Source: Blepharisma japonicum (Eukaryota > Ciliophora > Heterotrichea > Heterotrichida > Blepharismidae). Taken from it: a stretch of DNA of 64,000 nt. The notes under the pieces are model-generated. The model made no database searches, was not told the DNA's origin, and worked only from the letters and a program-made list of their open reading frames with translations. The position numbers and the translations under genes are program-made. Positions 5,172 through 37,263 of this stretch are shown here, piece by piece (the first letter of the stretch is position 1; each line of letters begins with the position of its first letter). The DNA lies in NCBI GenBank assembly GCA_949751835.1, contig CATKHK010000101.1, forward strand, positions 84,841 to 148,840, read 5' to 3'.

Positions 5172-5501
5172 ATGAGTGTTTCAGTAGCGAGGAAAATAAA
5201 ATTACCAACTGTAAATTAGAATTAGGCAGACAAAATTCGAGAAAATTTAGCTAGAGAAAGAGCAATACGATTACAGTGCAAAAATCCTGATTTCTCTGGA
5301 AATATTTCCAACAATATATCAATCAATATTGAGACAAGTTTTCAAAACACTGCTGCAAATGCTGCAACAGAAGAAAATGAAATAAAGGCTTCAAAGAACT
5401 CCTGCTTTGCTAGATTTTGTTGCTTTTTATGTAATTTAAAGTCTACTAAACGAAAAGAGACACCCAAGAATGTTTCGAGCCTTGAAAAAGAAAAATCGTA
5501 A
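5172..5501 (+). CDS. small unknown protein with Cys cluster, 104 aa, one 15-nt intron
   Basis: Exon 1 is 5172-5210, the intron is 5211-5225 (gtaaattagaattag) and exon 2 is 5226-5501. The splice restores one frame of 104 codons plus TAA. The N-terminus is basic, the middle is Asn/Ser/Thr rich (NISNNISINIE), and a Cys/Phe cluster (CFARFCCFLC) lies near residue 72, followed by a Lys-rich tail. The Cys cluster beside basic residues could be a palmitoylated membrane-binding patch (inference). I do not recognise a family. The in-frame splice of the length typical for this genome is the main evidence that this is a gene. Confidence 0.55.
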
Positions 5502-5813
5502 TGTACAAAAATATATTAACAAAATTACTATTTATTAGAAAATTTTTACAATTCTTGAGTATTTTTATTTTAAAAGTTTTAATTCACATAAATTATGAAA
5601 ATAATTTATAAATGCTAATAAGAGCTTTGTCACCAGAAATTCACTATAATTTAATAAAGTAAACAACTAGCAATAAGTAAAGCAAATATTTTCTTAAATA
5701 ATTAATGCGTCATATATGACCATATAATTTTTTGAAATTTTTTGATATCTATCAATTTACTCTTATCATTATTCACCAAATTAGATAAGAATACGATTAA
5801 ATTTTCTTTAATC
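5502..5813. other. AT-rich spacer between converging genes
   Basis: About 310 bases of AT-rich sequence between the 3' ends of two converging genes. No gene or clear structure was seen. Confidence 0.5.
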
Positions 5814-7685
5814 TTAATAAACTCTCTTTGCAGGTGGAATTGTATGCATTTCTTTCAAATCCAAAGTGTCAGTTATGACAGGCCTATACTTGATGGTGAC
5901 ATTATCACCCAACTCCTTTTGCCATGACAGTGTATGCTTCATCCACTCCTGGTCATTCCTATCCTTAAAATCATCTCTTGCATGTGCTCCTCTGCTTTCC
6001 TTTCTATTTTCTGCACAAATAATCGTCTGTTTTGCACAAGTCAGCAAGTTTTCCAGCTCCAAAGTCTCAACCAAATCTGAGTTCCAAGTCAAATCTCTAT
6101 CAGTAGTCTTAACATCCTTAAACAATTTGCAAATATCAGTCATTTTTTCGCATCCTTGTTTTAAGGTTTCTTCAATTCTAAAGACTGCTGCATGAAGCTG
6201 CATGGTGCTTTGCATTTTATCACGAATTGATGCAGTGCTTAATGGCCCAGTTGCAGTTCTCAGGCGCTCGACCTTTTCTATTGATTCTTCACCTGCATGA
6301 GGAGGGAGATCAGGCTGGGTTTGGCCAGGCTGGAATTCTTCTTTGGTTGTTAAAGAAGCAGCTCTTCCAAAAATGACGATGTCAAGCAATGAGTTGGCTC
6401 CGAGACGATTAGCCCCATGAACTGATGCACAAGCAGCTTCACCTGCTGCCAGAAGACCTGGGACAATTTTATCCTTACCGTCTTTATCAAGAGTAATAAC
6501 ATGGGTTTTCCAGTCAGTTGGAATGCCTCCCATATTATAGTGCACTGTTGGGACAACAGGAATTGGTTCTTTAGTTACGTCAACTCCTGCAAAAATCATA
6601 GCACTTTCGCTGATACCTGGGAGTCTTGAATGCAAAATTTCAGGAGGCAAATGGCTTAAATATAAGTGAACATGATCTTTTTTCGGCCCAACTCCTCTTC
6701 CTTGGAATATTTCTAGTGTCATAGCTCTGCTAACTACATCTCTAGAAGCCAAATCTTTAGCGGTTGGTGCATATCTTTCCATAAATCTTTCTCCTTCTGA
6801 GTTCCTCAAAATCCCACCTTCTCCTCTGCAGCCTTCAGTGATCAAGCAGCCAGCTCCATAGATTCCAGTTGGATGGAATTGAACGAATTCCATATCCTCT
6901 AGAGGCAGCCCAGCTCTTGCAATCATCCCATGCCCATCTCCTGTACAAGTGTGTGCAGAAGTGCAAGACTGAAAAGCTCTTCCATATCCTCCAGTTGCCA
7001 AAATAGTTTGGTTAGCCCTCATCCTATGAATTGACCCATCAGCCATGCTCATTGCCATAATTCCTCTGCAGACTCCTTCAACCATGATTAAATCCAAGGC
7101 AAAATACTCTACAAAGAACATGCAATTATACCCAAGAGCTCTTCCAAATAAAGTATGAAGCATGGAGTGTCCAGTTCTATCAGCGACTGCTGCACATCGG
7201 TAAGCTTGGCCTCCTTTCCCGAATTCGAGACTTTGGCCTCCAAAAGCTCTCTGATAGATTTTCCCTTCTTCTGTGCGGCTGAATGGCATTCCGTAACTTT
7301 CCAGCTCATAGACGGCTTCGATAGCTTCTTTGCACATATAGTGAATGGCGTTCTGGTCGCCAAGCCAGTCACTTCCTTTAACAGTATCGTAGAAATGCCA
7401 TCTTCAGTCATCTTTTGTCATATTTCCTAATGCCGCATTGATTCCACCTTGAGCAGCAACGGTGTGAGATCTGGTTGGGAATAGCTTAGAGATACAAGCT
7501 GTTTTATATCCGAGTGAGGCAAGACCAAATGCTGCTCGAAGACCAGCACCTCCTGCGCCGACTACAATTGCATCGTAAGTATGATCGTAGACAGTGTATG
7601 ATTTGGGGGTCGGCCCTTGAGATGGGCCGAGATCTGGAGTGACTTTTGATATCACTGCAAAAGGCCTTTTTAGCAGTCTCAACAT
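5814..7685 (-). CDS. SDHA: succinate dehydrogenase flavoprotein subunit, 623 aa
   Basis: A single exon, continuous from ATG 7685 to TAA 5814 when TGA (7404-7406) is read as Trp. That codon falls at the invariant Trp of the DDWRWHFYDT motif. The protein has the dinucleotide-binding GAGGAG (about 43-48), His74 in SHTVAAQGG (the residue that covalently carries FAD), the catalytic HPTGIYG region and the C-terminal RPVI segment. The basic, Ser-poor N-terminus of about 25 residues is consistent with a mitochondrial targeting peptide. The enzyme oxidises succinate to fumarate in complex II and the citric acid cycle. The length is near the usual 620-660 aa. No intron is present. Confidence 0.97.
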
Positions 7686-24394: not shown

Positions 24395-26545
24395 ATGCTA
24401 AAGGATTACGATAAATGGTGGGAAGAAGAGGTCAACGAACGATATACAGTCTTCAAAAAATATTTATTAGGAACATTTTGATTAATAGCTATTGGTTGGG
24501 GAACTTATGTGGTTCTTAATCCAGAAAATTTGAGAATTTTCTGGGATATGACACCTCATGTTATGGTCAATTGAGGAATGGTATGGCTATCAAGAATAAT
24601 TGACAAAAAAGGAACTTATGAAAAATCTGCATACTCAGTATTTCATACAGAATATTCGTGTATTATCCTTTGGTATTTATCAATAACCCAATTAAAGAAT
24701 TATTTAGTTTTATGCGAGATTCTGTCAGGTATTTATATCAATGCATTTGAGCTTGCATTTATTCAAAGAGCATGGCTTAGAAATTTAATTATCGCGAAAC
24801 ACATGATTATGTGGCATTACATTAAATATTTTACAGGGGAATTGATATTAGATGCTGATATTACTCCTCACACTATAGCAGCAATCTGTTTCCTGCTTTA
24901 TAATTTTATTTCTTATTATCAAATATTAACATCGTATGAGAGGTACCTTAACCGGATACAAAAGAATTCTGCAGAGAGTCATCTAGAAGTAATAATAAGC
25001 GCGTTCCCTGATGGAATTCTAATCTTATCAGATTTATTTTCAGTAGAATACATTAACTCCAATTTGACTTCTTTATTGAACTGTTCCTCTGAAGAAATTA
25101 AAGATATACTTATAAATATAAAATATTGCGAAGGCAAAAAATATTCCAATGTATCAGAATCGAGCAATTTATTTGATGACATCGAAATAATGCTTAAACA
25201 AGATTTAAGTCAACCAATAATGCTTGGTGTATCAGTATGCAATGGAAATAATATTGAGTGGAAAGGATGCAAAATAAGATGAGGTGAAAAAAATGCTCTC
25301 TCTTTAACTGCTAGAAACGTGAATCATATAATTCAGCTTGAACAGTCCATTTCTGACAGTAAGCTTAAAACTGTTTTACTAAGATCTGTTTCTCATGAAT
25401 TGAGAACACCTCTAAACGTTATTTCGTTTATTGCTGACGAGCTCTCTCAAAACCTTGACTCATATTCAATAGAGATATCAAAAGAAAAGTTAAGAATGAT
25501 ATCAATTTCAACTAAACTTTTATTGACTCTTGTAAATGATTTATTGGATTATTCAAGAATGCTAGCAGGGGTTTTCTCAGTACACAAGTCAAGATTCTTT
25601 TTGAAAGATTTGATTCAAAATGCTATGGATTTAATTAGTATTCAGGCTAATAGAAAAAATTTATTATTATCGTTTCAGATAGATCCACTGCTACCCAAAT
25701 ATATATATTCAGATCCCTTCAGGTTAAGCCAGATTCTTTTAAACTTTTTATCCAATGCTTTAAAGTTTACCTTAAAAGGATCAATTCAAGTAATTTGTGT
25801 GTCAACAATCACAAACAAATTGAAAATTATAATAAAAGACACAGGCTTAGGTATTGACAGCACAAAGCTTAGCACTTTATTTAATGAATTCAATACCGTT
25901 TCAAACCAAAATCTTAATCCTCAAGGCTGTGGACTTGGATTACATATTTCTAAAATGATTTTAAAAGAGCTTGGTAATGATATAATCTCAGTAGAATCTA
26001 AAGTTAATGTTGGTACAACTTTTTCTTTTACTATTGACATTGCAGAAAGCGCTGGAAACTCTTGATCGGATTCTTCTAATCTCATTATGAATATTTCTGA
26101 AGACTTTGATGGCTTAGGGAAAATTTTTTCAAATTATGATGTGAAAAAAGTGTCTCGCCGCCAAGTGCTCATAGTAGATGACAATGATTTCAACAGAATT
26201 GTACTCGCAACAGTATTAAGCAAAAATGGGATCACCTTTACAGAAGCTTGCACAGGAAGAGAAGCGATAAGCTATATTGCTTCTCAAGATATCAAAGGAA
26301 CCCCATATAATCTTGTGATTATGGATGGGGACATGCCTGAAATGACGGGCTGAGAAGCAACTCGGGAAATTGTAAAAATGAAAAGTAATGGAAAACTTTC
26401 ACATATACCTGTCGTTATTGGATATACTGCATACAGCTCAGAAGAGGATCTAAAGAGGTGTATAGATAGTGGAATGGTGGAGTGCTTGACAAAGCCATGT
26501 GATCCAGAGCTTTTGCTTTCAACAATTAATAAATATATTAGTTAA
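24395..26545 (+). CDS. hybrid sensor histidine kinase (paralogue 1), 716 aa
   Basis: Continuous from ATG 24395 to TAA 26543-26545 through several TGA (Trp) codons. The order is: short cytosolic KWWEEEVN motif, a membrane domain of about six segments (about 25-195) containing KHMIMWHYIKYF, a PAS-like domain (AFPDGILILSD ... CEGKKYSNVS), HisKA (SVSHELRTPLN, phospho-acceptor about H334), HATPase (LSQILLNFLSNALKFT; DTGLGID; GCGLGLHIS), then a receiver domain (VLIVDDNDFNR; phospho-Asp about D644 in VIMDGDMPEMTG; TKPC Lys). It would autophosphorylate on His and pass phosphate to its own receiver. No HPt domain is present. It shares this architecture with the genes at 29490 and 35104. The sensed signal is unknown. 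Confidence 0.93.
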
Positions 26546-26906
26546 TTTTGTATAAATATGGTTTGATATTAGATTTATTATTGATAATTTAGAAGGGATC
26601 TAAATAATTAATAATAGTGCAATATAATAATATGATTTTTAAAAAATATATGTATGCTTATCCTCTATGCGTGACGTCTTGAGTACTAAGATCTATTAAG
26701 AATCTCTATGCATAAATATAAATAGTTAACATTATAGCTAAAGATAGACATTAAATCAAAAAAAATCAATCATAAATAGCTATTTTATTTTAATCAATTT
26801 TTTAATTTTGCATCTTTTTAAATGCTTAAAGCCATTGATATTATCATTTAATGCTAGTTAAATGCAATCACATCTGATTTTATTCTTATATTAAATCAAA
26901 ACCAAA
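26546..26906. other. AT-rich spacer between converging genes
   Basis: About 360 AT-rich bases. Nothing was recognised. Confidence 0.5.
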
Positions 26907-29084
26907 TTAAAATTCATCTGTGGGGCTCATTGCTTCACAAAACGATCCATTTCTAGGCAGCCTTATTCTCCTGGCCAGTAAAGCTTCCCAATCTAATTTT
27001 CTGAAGAATGGGTGTCTTTTAATTTGAGAAATTTGAGGCCTCTTAGCTGGATCCCTGTTCATTACTTGAGTTATCAAATCTCTTGCAGTTGTGCTTACAT
27101 GAGACGGAAAAGACAATCTCGCTTGCTTTATGCTTTGGAACAACACATCAATATCTTGGGAATAATAAGGAGGAGCTCCCGTTAAGAGTTCATACAATAA
27201 TGGTCCAATTCCATAAATATCTGAAGCCTTACTTGCTCCTTTTTTAGCTACAATTTCAGGTGGCAAATATGCAGGAGATCCTGCCATTGTCATTGCAGGG
27301 TTGTCTTTGCTTACGTTTTCTTTTGCAAGGCCAAAGTCTGCAAGTTTTGCATGCCCAGAGCTGTCAATTAACACATTGGCAGGCTTAAGATCTCTATAGA
27401 TAATTTCAAGCGAATGTAAATATTCTAAAGCTAGAATGACTTCAGCTAAATAAAACTTGGCAATATTTTCTTCGATTATTTTATTTGACTCTAATAATCC
27501 TAATAAATCTCCATTAGGACAATATTCTAGTATCAAGTATAAGTATTGAGTTGTCTGAAATGCATAATATAAAGTGACTATAAACGGGTGCTTTAATTGC
27601 TTCATAATTTTGCATTCACTAATGGCATATTTTAGCTGTTTTTGTCTTTGCAGATTAGCTTTGCTTAACGATTTCATAGCATATTCTTGCTGGTCTCCAT
27701 TTCTCTTTTGGACTTTATAAACAGTGCCGAATGATCCACTTCCTATTTGGTCTAGAATCGTGAAACTATTGAAGTTTATTACTTCATCATTTACCAAGAC
27801 AGAAGGATTTTCACTGCTTACTGTTTCATCTTCAGCAACATCTGAAGCAATGCTTTCAGTGTTTTTCTTAAGCACAGAATCTTTAGATCGGTGAACCAAA
27901 CAATAGCTGACCCCTTGTTTAATCCTATTGACCCATTCTTTAGTCAAATCTTGATGCTTTGTATAGTATTTATAAGAGTTTCTTGCTGTCTCAATACTGA
28001 AAAAGAACTGCGTCTTGTTTCCGCCAATTACTCTGACATCTTGGACATCTGAAAGATTAATAATACACTCTGGCTCGACCTTATCTAAAAAATCTTCTTT
28101 ATAAGTGTACCTATCCAATGCACCTTTATCAAGATCCATATAAAGAAAAACAAGCCTATCATGAATAAATAGTGAGCCAGTCATCCAAATTTCTCCACAA
28201 AATGGAGGCGGTGTTTCAGACTCCTGCTGATATTTTCGTAATTGGCATTCGCCAAGATAAACTGGGAGTAATGTTAAAATTTCATGGTCTTTTGCTAATT
28301 CAATAGGTGTTTTTCCTCTTGGATCTTCAAGGGACATGCAGGCATTGGCTTTTAATAAAGTCTTTGCAATATCAGCATGTCCTCTTTCGCAAGCCAGATG
28401 AAGGCCTGTTCCTCTAAATTTAGTCATTTTATCTAGCTGCAAATTGGGGTGTTCCATTAATGCTTCTACACAATCAGTATGCCCTTGGAAACAGCAGAGT
28501 TGAAGAGGAGTCCATTCGTCTATTGTCACCTTATTAGAGTTCACTCTTCGGCCTACTAAATATGAAATAATTGCACTGTTGCCATAACTGCAAGCATAAT
28601 GAATCGGTGCTCATAGACATGGCTGTGCTTGGTTGAGCAAATCTTCATCATCAGGAGACTCAGATTCATAAATTTCAACTGTTCTCATAAGTTCGGAAAG
28701 ATTTCCAGTCTTGCACGCGTCTATGGCTTTTTCTAAAGGTCCATATTCTCTTGTAATTGGGAGATAGTTTTCAAAGCCTAAACTTTCCATATATGTAGAA
28801 CCACGGTTTAATTTGCGTTTGTTAGGCGATGGGCAACTGAATTCAAGCTGTTTTACTTCTATTTTAGAGTTTGGCTCAAGATGATAGAAACTTATTGGCC
28901 AGCTATCGCTCATCAATATTTTTATTCCACAGATTTCTGTGATTAAATTGATTTTTACTTGTACAGGACCCATCAAACTTATAATGGTTTTTTTAAGTTG
29001 CGAAATTTCTTGGTGAGGATCAACATCTATAACGAATTGGTTTCTTTTTGAACGTTTACTTGAATATTTCACCAATATTTTCAT
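26907..29084 (-). CDS. ubiquitin-like/ankyrin/PH/AGC-type protein kinase fusion, 725 aa
   Basis: ATG 29084 to TAA 26907, joined across one TGA (Trp) at 28611-28613. Residues 1-80 look like a beta-grasp, ubiquitin-like fold (inference). Ankyrin repeats span about 110-280 (APIHYACSYGN, TPLQLCCFQGHTDCVEAL, TGLHLACERGHADIAKTL). A PH-like domain covers about 295-395, ending in the helix KEWVNRIKQGV. The kinase domain spans about 440-705: GSGSFGTVYKV, Lys in YAMKSL (about 471), YRDLKPANV, DFGLA and SPAYLPPE. Subdomain IX reads SDIYGIGPLLYE rather than the usual DxWxxG. This combination would allow phosphoinositide recruitment plus protein binding. It sits between histidine-kinase paralogues 1 and 2. 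Confidence 0.9.
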
Positions 29085-29489
29085 TTTGATAAAGGAACGT
29101 CATATTGAAATACAAAAATTAATAGTAATTTTTTGAAAAATTTAGCTTTATAATGCTCATGAAATTTGTTAAGCTAATTTATTAAAAAAATTGGCTAAAG
29201 AATATTTTAATTTTCATGTAGGAAATTTTATTATATTAATCTTATAGTCTAATATTTTATTGATTAAATGGCATCACCAAAGGAAAATCTATTAGATTCG
29301 CGAACGGCAGTTATAATCATAACTGTTAACTAATTTTCTCATTTTTGCAATTATTAGACTTGCTGAATAAATCATTATATTAAAATATAATGCATTGCCA
29401 CAAATACTTATTACTTTATTAATGCTTTATAAAGTTTTTTTATGCTGTTGCATTTCTTACCATAACTACTTAAAATTATGCACTTATAA
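29085..29489. other. AT-rich spacer between divergent kinases
   Basis: About 400 AT-rich bases. A 20-residue ATG-started frame at about 29268 is the longest; it is probably chance. Confidence 0.5.
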
Positions 29490-31625
29490 ATGGGAGAGAG
29501 CTCTTATAACCTTTGGTGGGAAGAAGAAGTCAACCAGAAATTCCCAATCTTCAAAAAATATTTGGAATCTGCCAGGCGATATTTCACGATTTTTTGAATC
29601 ACATACCTCATAATAACTCCTGAAAATTTATCTGTATTTATCAAAACCTTGCCTTACACAATAACTCACTATACAATTTCTTTCGCTGTTAGCCTTCTAG
29701 AACATAAAAGTCCAGCCAAAAAATTTTGGTTCCCAGTGCTTTATGTCGAATATTGTCAAGCGGCGTTATGGGTCTATTCTTTAAGTTTTTGCTCAAGCCA
29801 CCCTATATTATTCGAAATGCTTGGGAGTTTGCTGATGGGATACTTTGAGCTTCCATTCATAAAAAACAAGTTTATCACAAATTTAATATTGATTAAGCAT
29901 GTTATATTATGGCACTATTACAAGTATTTTTCTGGAGATTATAATGATAGCGAAGATATGATTGGTCATATTGTAGGATTTTTGCATATTCTTGTATATA
30001 ACTATATCTTACACCAAACTGCTCAGGCAGCCCATGAGAAATATCTTTATAGGAAAGGGAAAGAAAAAGCTGAAAATCAGTTAGAAGTGATTATTAACGC
30101 CTTTCCTGATGGATTTTTTGTTATTTCAGAAGGCAATGCTATTGAGTATGCAAATACAAAAATGCTTAGTTTATTATCATGCAGCCAACATGAGCTGCTG
30201 CAAATTCTTTCTTCAATTATTTTTTGTCCAGGTAAAAAGTACAGCAATCTCTCACAAGCCGAATCCTTAGCAGACCACATGCATGCAATGTTTGATTTGG
30301 AATTTAACCTTGAGATAATGCTTGGAATATCAATATCCAGCAATATTAATCTTGAATGAAAAGGGTCCAAAATTTTATGGGAAAGTAAACCAGCACTATT
30401 AATTACTGCAAGAAATGCAAATAATATTATACAACTCGAACGGACTATTGCTGAAGATAAATTTAAAACTGTGCTTTTGAGGACTGTTTCCCATGAACTT
30501 CGAACGCCGTTAAATGCAATTGCATTATTAACAGAAGAGTTAAGCCAAGAGCCAAGCACTTCTGAAATTTGTAAGGATAAGCTGAGCATGATTTCTGTGT
30601 CTACAAGGTTGCTCTTAACCCTAGTTAGTGATTTACTTGATTTTTCAAGAATGCTTGCAGGAGTATTTTCAGTCCAAAAATCTTGGTTTTCTTTACAAGA
30701 AGCAGTCAAAGGGGCATGTGACCTTATACATATCCAAGCTAAAAAGAAAAATATTGCTTTAGTTATGAGAATTGATCCTTCTCTTCCCAGAATTGTATAT
30801 TCGGATCCGCTCAGGCTTAGTCAAGTATTATTGAATCTATTAAGCAATGCACTTAAATTTACAATGAGTGGCTTTATTGAAATTATTTGTTTACTTGATA
30901 AGAAAAATCACTTGAAAATAATAGTCCAAGATTCAGGGATTGGAATAGATAAAGCGAGCATTGTCCATTTATTTGATGAGTTTTATACATCTTCATTGCA
31001 AGCAATCAACCCTCAAGGATGTGGCTTAGGGCTGCCAATTTCTAATAAAATAGTAAAAGAGCTTGGCAATGGTCACATAGAAGTGGAATCTGCTAAAGGA
31101 AAAGGGTCATCTTTTTCTTTTAGAATCTCGATTTTTGAAGACAGTCAAAACATAGATTCATTTCTTTCTGATACAGAAAATAATACTTGTGAAGAAATTA
31201 ATTTTCTGCAATTAAATACCTCGACAACTAATATTTCGAATCCTCAAGTCCTTATAGTGGATGATAATGATATGAACCGGGCTATTGTGTCATCATTACT
31301 TAGCCATAATAAAATAAATATATCTGAGGCATGCACTGGAAAACAGGCAATTAATATGATCATTCAGCAAGATCACAGCAAAAATCCTTTTAAGGTTATC
31401 ATTATGGATGGAGAAATGCCTGAGCTAGATGGATGGGAAACAACTAAAATGATTGTTGAATTAAAAAGAACTGGCGAAATTAAATTTATGCCAAATATCA
31501 TAGGATATACTGCATATAGCTCTGACGAAGATATAAAGATGTGCATTCAATGTGGTATGAAAGAATGCTTAACAAAGCCATGCACCTCTGAGGCATTGAT
31601 ATCAACAATTCTTAAATATTTGTAA
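29490..31625 (+). CDS. hybrid sensor histidine kinase (paralogue 2), 711 aa
   Basis: ATG 29490 gives MGESSYNLWWEEEVNQ, aligning with paralogue 1; an in-frame TAA lies just upstream. It has the same order: a multi-pass membrane domain with KHVILWHYYKYFSGD, a PAS-like domain (NAFPDGFFVISE ... CPGKKYSNLS), HisKA (TVSHELRTPLN, about H335), HATPase (NLLSNALKFT; DSGIGID; GCGLGLPIS), then a receiver (VLIVDDNDMNR; about D640 in IIMDGEMPELDGW; LTKPC). Two TGA codons encode Trp; the one at 30357-30359 aligns with TGG in both paralogues. The gene is probably intact and functional, because all catalytic residues are kept. Confidence 0.93.
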
Positions 31626-31743
31626 GTATGCTATTTTAACAATAAGCTTTTCATATGCTAAATGAAAATTAAAAATATAAAGAATTCAATTATATTGAAG
31701 GGCAGTTACACTTTACAACTTATTACTCATAATTCTTTATATA

Positions 31744-32454
31744 TTAATTTACATCTTTCATTCCATGTGTTTCCTCTGAAAGATCAAGCCTATGCACTTT
31801 TTTACTATGAAGCATATCTGACTCATTATGTCTCATAAAGTTGAAACGCTCATCATTTTCTTCAGTTATATGTGAAGGTCTCATATTATCTTCCTGTCTC
31901 ACATTATTATTATCCTTTGCCTCTGCAAGCTGTGAGAAATCAATCATTTTCAGTGCTGTAAGCTGTGCTTTTTGCTGGTTTTTCAGAAAAATGATAACTC
32001 TCAGAAACTGTAAAATGGTTCTCAAAATCATCGCGATTTCCCCGCCAATCCCACCGATGTCTTCATCAATGTCTGAATCCCACAAGCCTGCTCCAATTGC
32101 AGTTATGCATACAATAACAATTATTAAATCGAAAATATTGGAAAAAGACTTTCAATACGCATGACAGTTTTGAATATACATACGAACGAAAACTTCGAAG
32201 ACTACAAGTACTGTAACTAAGCCTTCAAGCAGCCAAAACCACATATTGTCTGGAAATCGGCATTTTGAAAGTAAAGTTCAAACGATGCCGATTCCACAGA
32301 GAATGATAACAATTATGTATCCAATTCTGGTATATTTTGAAAAGTAAGCTCTATTCATACACAGCTTACAGTGGTTTTGGCTGGTTTTTAAGAGTTGGTT
32401 TGTAGACAAGACGTCACTGGGACTGTAGAGGCCAAGATCTTTTCCATTGTTCAT
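31744..32454 (-). CDS. voltage-sensor-domain-only membrane protein, 236 aa
   Basis: ATG 32454 to TAA 31744 with two TGA (Trp59 and Trp101). There are four hydrophobic segments: S1 about 44-62, S2 about 71-92 (VVFEVFVRMY, acidic E87), S3 about 106-122 (SNIFDLIIVIV, D109) and S4 about 141-158 (MILRTILQFLRVIIFLK), with Arg145, Arg152 and Lys158. The S2-S3 spacing, with Trp and NxFD, is typical of cation-channel voltage sensors. No pore helices follow; instead there is a short, charged cytosolic tail. It may be an Hv1-like proton channel, or a sensor without its own pore, as in TMEM266. The S4 charge spacing is sparse, so voltage sensing is inference. Confidence 0.65.
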
Positions 32455-32803
32455 TTTATAAGTGAAAAGTCAACTGAGTCTTCTTATCCCACCAAAAAGA
32501 CAGCCGAAAGCTTTAGGAATAGCTGAGCACTGCGCATTTGCAGGTGAAAATTCTGCGGCTTAGGCTTAGCTATACGATATAGAAATTATAAAATTAAAGA
32601 ATCAGACTACGAACATTCATCAGTGTGCAGATGACCGTCGTGATAGTTTCATCAGAAATAAATATAAAAATCAGTTTAACTATGACTCTTGAGTACTTCC
32701 ATCGAGAAAACCTCTCAAGGCTCAGAAAATTCATCATGGAAATTTTTATTATGGTAATTATTTATCCATTTTACCCCTAACGTAATCATATTTAAATTAA
32801 TTT
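32455..32803. other. spacer between divergent genes with unexplained complexity
   Basis: About 350 bases between two divergent starts. Part of it (32465-32660) is GC-richer than most spacers. A plus-strand frame there is open for about 77 codons if TGA is Trp, but it has no ATG and no tiny intron linking it to one. The minus strand has a 46-residue ATG frame. No call is made. Confidence 0.4.
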
Positions 32804-33250
32804 ATGAGTTATTCAACTAAGCGAAGGGTTCAACGATCTACTATTGGCTTGCCTATAAACGACTTTTTAGAAAGTCTGGACACAAAATATGGCTCAGAAA
32901 TGACGCTTGACGACGTATTTGATGATTCCAGAGATTTCAGAGACCAATATCAAAGGGATTTTATGAAAAATTCAACCCCTATTAAAGAACCGACACCAGC
33001 AAAAATGTATAAAGAAAACTTATATGACACGTTAGGACTAACTCCATCTTGCACAGCCAAAGATATGAAAGCTGCTTATAGAAACTTGATTATGAGGATG
33101 CATCCAGATAAAGGAGGAGATGGTGGTGTGTTTAATAAAATTCAGCTTGCTTATAAAGTATTGTCAGATGAAGAGTCAAGAATGCTTTATGATGAGTTTG
33201 GCGAGAGCGCGATTGATATTATACAATCATTTAGCCAAAGGCTGTATTAA
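32804..33250 (+). CDS. J-domain (DnaJ-like) co-chaperone, 148 aa
   Basis: The C-terminal J domain spans about residues 71-135 (LYDTLGLTPSCTAKDMKAAY), with the HPD motif at 100-102, which stimulates Hsp70 ATPase. The N-terminal 70 residues are basic, then acidic (DDVFDDSRDF), and unique. There is no Gly/Phe-rich region, zinc finger or membrane segment, so it is a class III (type C) J protein. The Hsp70 partner and compartment are not evident. It ends 22 bases before the 3' end of the convergent MORN gene. Confidence 0.9.
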   Translation: MSYSTKRRVQRSTIGLPINDFLESLDTKYGSEMTLDDVFDDSRDFRDQYQRDFMKNSTPIKEPTPAKMYKENLYDTLGLTPSCTAKDMKAAYRNLIMRMHPDKGGDGGVFNKIQLAYKVLSDEESRMLYDEFGESAIDIIQSFSQRLY

Positions 33251-33271
33251 TTTATTTAAAAATATATTTAA

Positions 33272-34300
33272 TTACACATCTATCCAGCGGGCTCTTTTGC
33301 CATCTTTCCAATCGCCTTTTCGTCTTGTTCCGTCTGGAGTCATTATCCATCCTTCGCCATGTTGTTTTCCATTCTTTCAATACCCTTCATATTTTCTTCC
33401 ATCAACCCACAAATAGACCCCGTATCCATGTTTTTTATCATTTTGGTACTCTCCTTCATACTTTCTTCCATCTTTTCATGCATAAAACCCTCGTCCATGC
33501 ATAGTCCCATTTAGCCAATCGCCTTCATATTGTCTGCCATCATACCAAGTATATGTGCCTTTGCCATTGATTTTATTATCAATTCATTGTCCAGTATACT
33601 TCGACCCTTCCTTCCAAATATAAGTCCCAAAGCCATGCTTTTTGCCTGCTTTATAGTATCCTTCATATTTACTTCCGTCAATTCAAGATTCCTTTCCAAA
33701 GCCATCTTGGATATCGTCTTTTCATTCTCCTTCATACATTGCACCGTTAGCTTGTTTGTAGGTTCCTTTTCCATTAGCTTTGTCGTCTTTTCATTCTCCA
33801 TCATATATGTCGCCATCTACATGCCAAAATTTGCCTTTCCCATGAGCTTTGTTATCTTTTCATTGGCCTTCATATCTTGCTCCGTCAGGCCACGTTTGTA
33901 TGCCGTAGCCATCTCTGAAGCCTCCTTTCCATTGGCCAACGTAGACAGCTCCGCTTTTAAATCTATAAGGAGGCCTGTCTTCTCGTTCAGGAATTCCAGA
34001 TTGTTTCCCTAAAAGGGTTTCTTTGGATTCTTCAGCAGTAAAGTACTTGCCATTCATTCTTTGTTTTTTGCGGAGGTGTGAGACTAATTTTCGGTCTTGG
34101 TGTCCTCGTCACATGGCTTGGATTTTTATGATCCTTGGGGTGTACTTTTTAAGTTTTTGCAGTAAATCATGTGGAATTTCAGATTTTGCTTTGCTTTTAC
34201 TTCTGGCTGTTGCAGTGGTTTGATTTTCTAGTATTTCAAGCTCAGTTTTGAGCTCATTTTCTCTGTTTGCGCATGAGCACCCAGAACAACTAACTCCCAT
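33272..34300 (-). CDS. lipid-anchored MORN-repeat protein, 342 aa
   Basis: The N-terminus [10 protein letters not shown] fits N-myristoylation at Gly2 plus palmitoylation of nearby cysteines. A short coiled coil with an IQ-like basic stretch follows. From about residue 105 to the end there are about ten MORN repeats with the pattern YEGxWKxxxxHGxGxxxWxDG. Many of the repeat tryptophans are encoded by TGA, so the frame is broken under the standard code. MORN repeats bind acidic lipids or scaffold cortical and ciliary structures. A membrane-cortex scaffold is inferred. The repeated structure also creates long shadow frames, which were ignored. Confidence 0.9.
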
Positions 34301-35103
34301 TTACTTAATATAGCGGGTGGTTTTAAGAAATGGAATTCAAATGTTATTGAAAAAATGTTGTTTATTTGAGGATTGAATCTATGTATAGCTAATATTGAGA
34401 TAGCTTTTGAATTTTATTATTTCCTAGATAATTAAATAATAAAAGAAAATTTGGCTAGATCTAAATTGAATGATAGCTATTTTACTTATATTAGTGTACT
34501 GAAGCTCCAAGTAAATGGCAATATTTTAAAAGCATTTGCTTAGATTTGTGAGATTTCGTACTAAATTGATTAATGAATTGTGCTTTATAAGCCTATCATT
34601 ATTGGCTGGAAAAGCATTGAAGACTGATCTCCTCGGAAATAATAATAATAATAACAGCAAGAATAAATTTAAAGACTATGATGTCAATTAAGTCTAAAAG
34701 CGGAAATTATCTCAGCAGCCTAAAGAAAATAAATCGTTGACAAAATACAAAATTAAATAAATATAGACTCATTTATCCGTTTAAATCTTTAGTAATCAAC
34801 TTAAACACTGTTTCAGATTAGGCTATATCAAATAAAAATAATAAATAAAGTGATTTGTGAATTTCGTTCGATCCAAATAATTTAGAAAATTCTGGAAAAT
34901 TATTAGAATAATATATTCTTTATATCTATTATTCTCTATTTTGAACGATAAAAATTTAAAACTGCTAGCTGGATTAGCTTTGATTAATTAAAATGCTTCC
35001 CATTCTTCAAAGATAAGTATTTGCCAAATTAACATAATCAGAAAATAGATTAGTCAATTACATAATAAAGAGTTTATATGTTTTAAATTATTTTATAATT
35101 ATA
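34301..35103. other. long AT-rich spacer with short AAT microsatellite
   Basis: About 800 AT-rich bases between two divergent starts. A short (AAT)n run, about five copies, lies near 34638-34655. No gene was seen. Confidence 0.5.
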
Positions 35104-37263
35104 ATGATGCCTAAAGAGCTTTTAGAAGAATGGTGAGAAGAGGAAATAAATCAAAAATTTTCTATTTTAAACTTTTTCATTCACAGAAATATAGCTATCT
35201 TTATGCTTATAGTTCCGATTTTTGCTATTTATGACCTATATAACTTTAATTTCTGGCTTCAAATATTGATACTCATGATTTTTCAAGCATTATTTTGCAT
35301 ATTAGCTGACTATATTAACATAAAGGATGCAAGTAAAAAAGCTTTTTTTGCAGTATTTTATTCTGAGTTCTGCTGTTTTGGACTATTTTATCTTTCATAT
35401 AGCCAGAAGAGAGACCATGCAATCCTTTTTGAAATGTTTTGCGCAATTCTAATGATGTGCTTTGAAATTCCTTTAGTCCGATGCAATTGAAAAAAATATG
35501 CAGTAGCAGTCAAGCACGTGTTTATATGGCATTATATAGGCTATTTTAGGGATAGCGTGGTTTATGATGGGAATATGATTCCTCATTTTTTTGCTATAAT
35601 ATGTGTTTTTATGTACAATCACATGACTAATATAAGATCTAAAAGCTCTATTGAAAGGTTCCTAAATAAAAAAGGAAAATCAAAAGCGAAGATGAGATTT
35701 AGCGTTATTGTTAATGCTTTTCCAGATGGTATCTTTATCATTTCGGATAATCTTGAAATTGTATATACAAATGACAATTTATTGAAACTCCTAGATTGCC
35801 AGTCAGAAGAGTTAATTAGAATTATTTCTGAAATAGTTTATTGTGATGGTAAAAAATATTCGAATTTTTCAGACTCGAATTTATTGATGGATGATTTGCA
35901 AGCGATTTTTAATCAAAACGATAGAAATGAATTTATGCTTGGAATTTCTTATTTTAAAGGCAACAATATTGAGTGGAAAGGACTAAAGATAATGTGAGAA
36001 AACAAGCAGGCATTGGCAATTATTGTTAGAGATGCAAATCAAATAATACAGCTAGAGAGATCTATTTCAGATAGCAAGGTTAAAACGGTTATATTGAGAT
36101 CAGTTTCTCATGAATTGAGAACTCCAATTAATGCCATTTCATTTCTTGTTGAGGAGCTTTTAGAAAAGCAAAATGATAATATAACAGAGGACTGAAAAGA
36201 AAAATTGAAAATTATTTCTATTTCAACCAAGCTACTGCTTACACTGGTTAATGATTTGCTTGATTATAGCAGAATGCTTTCTGGTGCGTTTTCTATTAGA
36301 AAATATGAATGCGATTTAAGGAATATAATAGAAAATGCTTGAGAACTTATTAAACTGCAAGCACTGAAAAAAAATATTAGTTTGACACTAAGAATTGATC
36401 CGACTCTTCCTGTCTATATATACAGTGATCCTCTAAGATTAAGTCAAGTTCTGCTAAATCTTCTTAGTAATGCACTTAAATTCACATTATGTGGATCAAT
36501 AGAAGTTATATGCATCTCTACATTATCAAGCCAATTAAAAATTACAGTTCGGGACACTGGCATCGGAATTGAAGAAAATAAAAAAAATAAATTATTCCAA
36601 GAATTTTGTTCAGAAGTCTTACCTATTGTTAATCCTAATGGATGCGGTTTAGGCTTGCATATATCAAATAAAATTGTAAAAGAGCTCGGAGGAAATATTA
36701 TCACAGTTGAGTCCGAAGTCGGTTATGGATCAACTTTTTCTTTCGAAATAAACATGTTTCACAACAACTCAACTTTTGAAATAGTATCTAATGACTATGA
36801 TGATCTCTTAATGGATGAAAACCCTAACCTCGAAATTACGCTCAGTAAGTCATTAATTATCAACAAAATAAATCTTCCTCAAATTCTGATCGCTGATGAT
36901 AATGACTTCAATCGACTCATTTTAATATCATTATTATTGAAAAATGGAATCTCAGCACTAGAGGCTTGCACAGGTAAGCAAGCTGTTGACCTAATTTTAA
37001 AGCATAACATAAAAGAGCATACATCAATAAAAATAATTATTATGGATGGAGAAATGCCTCAGATGAATGGCTGGACAGCTACTCAAAAAATCCATGATAT
37101 GTATGCTAAAGAAGAAATCAGAGTTCTTCCAAATATAATTGGATATACTGCATATAATACAGATGAAGACATTTCAAATTGCTATAAAAGCGGCATGAAA
37201 GAATGCTTGATAAAGCCTTGCACAGCAGAAAAAATAATTTCGACAATTTTGAAATACTCTTAA
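35104..37263 (+). CDS. hybrid sensor histidine kinase (paralogue 3), 719 aa
   Basis: ATG 35104 (tandem ATG ATG) to TAA 37261-37263. The first TGA is in the EWWEEEIN motif (TGG TGA), which matches WW in the paralogues; other TGAs are also Trp. The membrane domain contains KHVFIWHYIGYF. The PAS-like domain has AFPDGIFIISD and CDGKKYSNFS. HisKA is SVSHELRTPIN (about H336), HATPase has NLLSNALKFT, DTGIGIE and GCGLGLHIS. The receiver has ILIADDNDFNR, with about D648 in IIMDGEMPQMNGW, and IKPC. All phosphotransfer residues are kept. Of the three it has the most TGA codons visible as breaks. Confidence 0.93.

Follow-up and report, generated by a model that had tools for sequence, protein, structure and literature searches.

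Hybrid histidine kinases with an uncatalogued six-helix membrane domain form a family of about 70 members in Blepharisma japonicum and suggest an undescribed chemical-sensing system

The stretch of DNA analysed here (the window; 64,000 nucleotides of the ciliate Blepharisma japonicum, G000, contig C101, positions 84841-148840) carries three genes for hybrid histidine kinases, and their relatives were searched for in the assembly of 45,185,585 bases in 224 contigs. An earlier note on this DNA had described the three genes as paralogues sharing one domain order, and this description was confirmed. All three are open under genetic code table 4, all three contain the kinase domains of Pfam, and they have in common the order six-helix membrane domain, PAS, HisKA, HATPase, and receiver. 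Their features, with positions in the window and in amino acids (aa), are listed below.

24395..26545, plus strand: hybrid histidine kinase 1 (P0001), 716 aa, open under table 4 with 5 TGA codons read as Trp; Pfam HisKA, HATPase_c, and Response_reg
24395..24985, plus strand: kinase 1 N-terminal WWEEE segment and predicted six-helix membrane domain, aa 1-197 (AlphaFold2)
24797..24832, plus strand: kinase 1 KHxxxWHYxxYF in helix 5, aa 135-146 (alignment)
24977..25339, plus strand: kinase 1 PAS, about aa 195-315 (family profile against WalK PAS structures, E 3.3e-4; no Pfam PAS match of its own)
25370..25567, plus strand: kinase 1 HisKA, aa 326-391 (PF00512, E 4.4e-12)
25712..26041, plus strand: kinase 1 HATPase_c, aa 440-549 (PF02518, E 5.1e-19)
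26165..26527, plus strand: kinase 1 receiver, aa 591-711 (PF00072, E 2.4e-21)
29490..31625, plus strand: hybrid histidine kinase 2 (P0002), 711 aa, open under table 4 with 2 TGA codons read as Trp
29490..30083, plus strand: kinase 2 six-helix membrane domain, aa 1-198 (aligned to kinase 1, helices gap-free)
29895..29930, plus strand: kinase 2 KHxxxWHYxxYF in helix 5, aa 136-147 (alignment)
30075..30437, plus strand: kinase 2 PAS, about aa 196-316 (PAS_8, E 3.4e-4 with the whole protein, below the cut-off; 2.8e-5 with the segment alone, above the cut-off)
30471..30659, plus strand: kinase 2 HisKA, aa 328-390 (PF00512, E 2.3e-13)
30804..31127, plus strand: kinase 2 HATPase_c, aa 439-546 (PF02518, E 1.1e-23)
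31248..31610, plus strand: kinase 2 receiver, aa 587-707 (PF00072, E 1e-20)
35104..37263, plus strand: hybrid histidine kinase 3 (P0003), 719 aa, open under table 4 with 5 TGA codons read as Trp
35104..35703, plus strand: kinase 3 six-helix membrane domain, aa 1-200 (alignment)
35512..35547, plus strand: kinase 3 KHxxxWHYxxYF in helix 5, aa 137-148 (alignment)
35695..36057, plus strand: kinase 3 PAS, about aa 198-318 (PF00989, E 3.2e-4, below the cut-off; family profile)
36091..36282, plus strand: kinase 3 HisKA, aa 330-393 (PF00512, E 7.5e-14)
36427..36750, plus strand: kinase 3 HATPase_c, aa 442-549 (PF02518, E 3.2e-21)
36883..37248, plus strand: kinase 3 receiver, aa 594-715 (PF00072, E 7.7e-17)

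Kinases 2 and 3 aligned to kinase 1 over its entire length, with 49% and 45% identity, respectively. The motifs that the earlier note had singled out as conserved, WWEEE(V/I)N, KHxxxWHYxxYF, CxGKKYSN, and (I/L)EWKG, were present in all three window kinases in the alignment. Residue numbers in the following text are those of kinase 2; in the membrane part, the numbers in kinase 1 are one lower.

The three genes belong to a much larger family. The membrane and PAS region of kinase 2 matched 71 places in the genome (45.2 Mb), and HisKA was found at 67 places (68 candidates, all scored); these counts of places are lower bounds. Every one of the 67 HisKA places was immediately preceded, in the same orientation, by a membrane and PAS match, and the search turned up no HisKA kinase with a different architecture. 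In addition, N-terminal matches with a receiver downstream and no HisKA match were found at C64:212314 and C3:727556, and a locus at the end of contig C54 showed the HATPase-receiver part alone. The 67 HisKA loci together with these three incomplete loci therefore give a family of approximately 70 members. When the membrane domain was searched by itself, it matched 57 places, all of which were kinase loci; 56 of them were within 1.3 kb of a HisKA, and the 57th was the C64 locus. The family thus seems to comprise all detectable histidine kinases of this heterotrich. Some members are clustered (nine on C15, eight on C46, seven on C81, five each on C75 and C97, and three each on C4, C13, C72, and C101), and the remaining ones are single. 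The proposal that the window genes constitute a local array was not borne out, since about 70 members are spread over the genome and kinases 2 and 3 are each closer to a gene on C72 than to any on their own contig. At C4:332519-335419, one member has its membrane domain and its kinase in forward orientation, with the PAS part between them in reverse; this looks like a local inversion, either real or an assembly error.

Conservation was assessed in 47 single full-length open reading frames (ORFs), obtained from 56 of the 67 HisKA places. The places without a single full-length ORF (C75:4388, C15:284693, C46:234519, C4:333919, C5:36234, C21:218662, C40:57869, C46:231242, and C46:242457) were left out. 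The membrane domain was the most variable part, with a mean pairwise identity of 23%, compared with 40% for PAS, 57% for HisKA, 51% for HATPase, and 50% for the receiver. The phospho-accepting His, Asn 453, Asp 481, Gly 483, the receiver residues D591, D592, and D640, and Lys 696 were invariant in all 47 members, and N449, G485, and G510 were each kept in 46. The HisKA His, the N, G1, and G2 boxes, the receiver acids, and the Lys of a hybrid kinase are therefore all found on one chain, and the view that the catalytic residues of the window genes are intact holds, invariantly or nearly so, for all aligned members.

In the N-terminal part, W9 (46/47), W10 (42/47), and E12 (43/47) were well kept, and so were K78 (43/47; K or R in 45), E87 (47/47), and E120 (36/47) in the membrane domain and K136 (40/47; K or R in 43), H137 (39/47), and W141 (42/47) in helix 5. 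The complete motifs were much rarer. KHxxxWHYxxYF was complete in 7 of the 47 members, KHxxxWHY in 12, KHxxxW in 29, CxGKKYSN in 5, and (I/V/L)EWKG in 10. KHxxxWHYxxYF, CxGKKYSN, and (I/V/L)EWKG mark a subgroup and not the whole family. The His-rich motif, which the earlier note had called strikingly conserved, was rejected as a hallmark of the family: KHxxxWHY is incomplete in 35 of 47 paralogues, and what the family keeps is K136, H137, and W141, each in 39-42 members.

With whole proteins, Pfam reported PAS_8 or PAS in two of the three window kinases, below its cut-offs. The assignment of a PAS part, proposed in the earlier note, was upheld by the profile of the 47 members, which matched WalK PAS structures with an E value of 3.3e-4 over profile positions 4-70 of 144, and by 18 single members of the 47 that matched Pfam PAS at E<=0.01.

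The membrane domain was predicted by AlphaFold2 from the three window sequences as six helices joined by short loops, with a predicted local distance difference test (pLDDT) of 74.7 and a predicted template modelling score (pTM) of 0.65. In kinase 1, the predicted helices span residues 2-41, 43-69, 74-98, 101-122, 126-146, and 157-197, and the last one extends towards PAS. The full-length model had a pLDDT of 51.5 and was used for helix positions alone. If the predicted helices are right, E87 (helix 3) would be at a membrane depth similar to that of K136/H137 (helix 5) and might contact them.

Pfam holds models for MHYT, 7TMR-DISM, and CHASE. A Pfam scan of the 47 N-terminal domains at E<=0.1 returned 12 families, none of which was MHYT, 7TMR-DISM, or CHASE, and any one match was shared by at most 2 of the 47. 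These scattered matches (S_4TM in 2/47; VPS11_C at 0.0017, DUF6594, MASE8, and eight others in 1/47 each) were judged to be due to chance. NCBIfam gave two single matches to the membrane domains, and the 47-member membrane profile found nothing at E<=1 among all PDB sequences. By sequence, then, the membrane domain is not a catalogued sensor, and the earlier note is supported on this point. Several candidates were considered and set aside. MASE8 matched 1 of the 47 domains (E 0.0074) and MASE3 none. The NCBIfam model MASE3_PAS_HK scored 130-157 bits with whole proteins against a cut-off of 560, and this match was not repeated by the membrane domain alone. A microbial rhodopsin kinase has seven helices, a retinal Lys in the last helix, and a rhodopsin profile; here, six helices were predicted, and rhodopsin was not among the Pfam matches. 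A cytochrome-b-like heme domain requires four intramembrane His, and H137 was the only one above 80%, with H60 and H137 occurring together in 22 of 47 members. The suggestion of metal or heme binding is likewise weak, with H137 (39/47) as the one His column above 80% and H60, the next (29/47), absent from two of the three window genes.

A Foldseek search against PDB gave nothing at E<=0.001. The model suggests that the fold perhaps resembles the six-transmembrane-helix (6TM) bundle of the cyclase type; the structural listing behind this likeness does not speak against families that are missing from it. Hence the domain is unfamiliar in its sequence, but its fold is perhaps a familiar one. A scan of prokaryote genomes with kinase 2, based on six short peptide patterns that distant relatives would escape, matched 11 stretches and yielded three loci, all of them similar to the kinase core alone (residues 326-550), and a bacterial source of the membrane domain was therefore not found.

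Hybrid kinases without a phosphotransfer domain of their own had been expected to have a separate HPt partner, and the genome search found one elsewhere, apparently just one (C41:215069-215278, E 6.9e-9, over the Pfam cut-off). It lies in a protein of 243 residues, with the HPt domain at 53-120 and the motif HSLKGSS. When this protein was used as the query, the search returned, apart from the protein itself, just two matches, both weak (E 0.003 and 0.03) and confined to residues 182-242, outside the HPt domain; the HPt segment had no match among PDB sequences at E<=0.01.

One receiver query matched 79 places, of which 11 did not fall, by position, to any of the 69 kinase loci. The kinase at C46:221763 had no receiver in this list of 79, and its receiver was found separately at C46:222555. 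Among the 11 unassigned places, that on C54 is the kinase fragment, that on C23 is a stand-alone receiver of 119 residues, and those at C3:307374 and on C24, C37, and C48 are in proteins ending in a receiver; two more are at C8:576217 and C15:364630. In the C24, C37, and C48 proteins, the stretch upstream of the receiver resembles by eye a degenerate histidine-kinase core, and these proteins are possibly a pseudokinase branch of the relay. Contig C124 holds three unassigned receivers, in one receiver-protein kinase-DEP-DUF547 protein and in a double-receiver gene.

2409-4826 of C124:77500-87000: receiver, NEK-type protein kinase, DEP, and DUF547

The kinase domain of this protein was closest to NEK1 in the PDB search (3.4e-52); of its best 16 PDB rows, 15 were named NEK1, NEK2, or NEK7, and one had an incomplete fusion name. 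The fusion is a possible direct bridge from a His-Asp phosphorelay to NEK signalling. In the same region, the two tandem receivers (5395-6261 and 6384-7032) are 93-94% identical to the NEK-fused receiver, and, on visual inspection, the scattered frames after them are similar to the C-terminal part of the NEK gene; the region looks like a rearranged partial duplicate of that gene.

The divergence of the family was examined in 13 close pairs. The ratio of nonsynonymous to synonymous substitution rates (dN/dS) by region was 0.06-0.25 where computable, and it was higher in the membrane part than in the histidine-kinase (HK) part in 10 of 10 pairs with both values; the pairs share members, many dS values exceed 1, and regions with uncomputable dS were left out. 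Since dN/dS is low but above that of the HK part, the membrane domain is under purifying selection and yet changes faster. In the tree of the 47 members, contig mates were grouped (20 label changes, compared with a shuffled mean of 28.1; 0 of 200 shuffles were as low). This grouping was due to C15, C46, C4, and C97, and the other eight groups were no better than shuffled. Kinases 2 and 3 each paired with C72 genes rather than with each other, so the C101 and C72 clusters may, judging from the tree, represent an old block duplication. For C15:274817 and C15:278333, the DNA identity in 40-residue windows was 66-93% for starts up to residue 301 and 96-99% from 321 on, and dS fell from 1.31 in the membrane part to 0.07 in the HK part. 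We read this pair as a recent gene conversion of the output half, from the HisKA start to the end, with the sensor half still different. The C97 and C4 pairs displayed weaker, partial rises in identity; the C15 pair is the one clear case.

The genetic code and the surroundings fit the ciliate host. Kinases 1-3 are broken under table 11, and each runs from ATG to a stop under table 4 with TGA as Trp. The CCCTAACA triple repeat occurred at 77 forward and 91 reverse overlapping places in the assembly, compared with none for the reversed control. UGA as Trp and the CCCTAACA repeats agree with the description of Blepharisma in PMC9942806. A Pfam scan of eight neighbour genes gave SHIPPO-repeat, acyltransferase, ankyrin-protein kinase, ion-transport, MORN, myosin-tail-like, EF-hand, and armadillo proteins. 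Since these neighbours are ordinary eukaryotic genes, the kinase genes are taken to belong to the host and not to bacterial contamination. Between kinases 1 and 2, the minus strand (26907-29084) encodes a 725-aa protein with ankyrin repeats, a protein kinase domain, and a weak match to PH.

The kinases have the anatomy of a receptor family, in which variable inputs are coupled to a constant output. The explanation we favour, with a probability of about 0.55, is that the kinases, similar in construction to bacterial CqsS, act as receptors of small or lipophilic ligands and feed one phosphorelay. A small, probably membrane-soluble or amphipathic ligand would bind among the helices, whose predicted loops are short. 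The sixth membrane helix would continue as a signalling helix towards PAS, so that ligand binding could shift it and, via PAS, alter HisKA autophosphorylation. To judge from the intact residues, the phosphate would pass to the attached receiver and then to the C41 HPt, and from there to the small receiver set, including the receiver fused to the NEK-type kinase with DEP and DUF547. Many sensors would in this way converge on one relay, and the NEK kinase could act on cilia or the cytoskeleton. We infer the ligand class, the direction of signalling, and the way in which kinases, HPt, and receivers pair; in our view, the comparison with CqsS makes small or membrane-soluble ligands the likeliest stimuli. 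A broader version, tentative and on balance doubtful, would see an olfactory-receptor-like repertoire assembled from a bacterial-style phosphorelay: about 70 genes with tandem clusters, a diverse receptor part on a constant output, which at least one pair has gene-converted, a single 6TM module of the adenylyl cyclase/CqsS kind shared by all receptors, one HPt, and a NEK bridge to ciliary signalling.

Other explanations were weighed against the same data. The kinases could be a lineage-specific expansion of encystment or stress regulators that read osmotic or membrane stress and not chemicals. The authors of PMC10946202 describe expanded sensor-kinase gene families in six hypotrichs and link them to encystment, and expansions of histidine kinases are also on record for ciliates such as Tetrahymena and Ichthyophthirius (PMC3341644). 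Nevertheless, the link as published rests on enrichment (PMC10946202), and one stress hardly requires about 70 diverged membrane domains, so we regard this explanation as rather unlikely. It is less likely still that part of the family senses the Blepharisma gamones or other self-made signals in the manner of CqsS, even though Vibrio and Legionella use histidine kinases of the 6TM type for quorum sensing (PMC4821796); about 70 diverged members far exceed what two gamones would need, and the eight scanned neighbour genes had no link to mating.

We know of no identified gamone receptor in Blepharisma. A redox or gas sensor, in which conserved membrane His bind heme b or a metal, ranks lower again and seems improbable: H60 and H137 coincide in fewer than half of the members (22/47), two of the three window genes lack H60, the four-His pattern is absent among the 47, and designed proteins match the domain as generic bundles. 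Blepharisma is light-responsive, and the conserved K136 (40/47, helix 5) and E87 (47/47, helix 3) are placed as a Schiff-base pair might be. A role as photoreceptor kinases, in which the membrane domain would carry a chromophore and mediate the cell's light response, is, in our judgement, very improbable and the least probable of these alternatives. Overall, the light, heme, and pheromone readings are less supported than small-ligand reception.

To our knowledge, chemical detection by ciliates is largely unresolved at the receptor level. The family suggests an undescribed chemical-sensing system, and with one family, one receptor domain, and one HPt bottleneck, the question of chemical sensing becomes testable. 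Should the membrane domain really be a 6TM domain of the cyclase kind, the idea that such 6TM bundles are receptors would extend to a large family of eukaryotic kinases. Through the NEK-fused receiver, the phosphorelay would have a short route to cytoskeletal kinases.

CqsS is a hybrid kinase with a receiver, and its architecture of 6TM, histidine kinase, and receiver was found here with PAS added. CqsS and LqsS of Vibrio and Legionella are described as having six short membrane helices, short loops, and a cytosolic histidine kinase (PMC4821796), and in this they are alike. According to the same source, the 6TM domain of CqsS can replace the 6TM anchor of a cyclase and confer regulation by its lipophilic ligand (PMC4821796). 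Unlike CqsS and LqsS, the Blepharisma family has an inserted PAS and about 70 paralogues and belongs to a eukaryote, and the likeness drawn here is one of architecture. In the class III adenylyl cyclase AC9 (7pde) and the diguanylate cyclase ImcA (8wcn), whose 6TM domain spans L47-E231 (PMC10904736), the effector is a cyclase, whereas here it is a PAS-histidine kinase. No sequence similarity to the cyclase-type 6TM domains (adenylyl cyclase TM1, ImcA) was found at E<=1 with the 47-member profile against PDB. Because no cyclase similarity was found and the CqsS likeness is architectural, the membrane domain was not filed as a member of either group; by analogy, it may work like the 6TM domains of cyclases and CqsS.

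For the relay, RdeA belongs with the Dictyostelium and Physarum kinases and RegA for comparison. PMC4758236 describes in these organisms many sensor kinases and fewer separate receivers, as in Blepharisma. However, their sensor architectures are varied and the Blepharisma family has one, and the output of RegA is a phosphodiesterase (PMC4758236), whereas in Blepharisma one receiver is fused to a NEK-type kinase. Among ciliates, PAS is reported to be absent from the kinases of Paramecium and Tetrahymena (PMC3019232) but is present in the Blepharisma family, and histidine kinases are up-regulated in symbiont-bearing Paramecium bursaria (PMC4029085). No described counterpart of the family or of the receiver-NEK fusion was found in the literature searched on Blepharisma, Stentor, ciliate histidine kinases, 6TM kinases, and receiver-NIMA-DEP proteins. 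The earlier idea of an undescribed sensory family stands, within these searches, as regards the uncatalogued domain and the lack of such a counterpart, but not as a local array. Large lineage-specific expansions of histidine kinases are already known in other ciliates (Tetrahymena, Ichthyophthirius, and hypotrichs; PMC3341644, PMC10946202), and Blepharisma is alike in this respect. Within the literature searched, what is new in Blepharisma is one architecture for the whole detectable set, an uncatalogued 6TM domain that perhaps resembles the anchors of cyclases, the single HPt found, and the receiver-NEK fusion.

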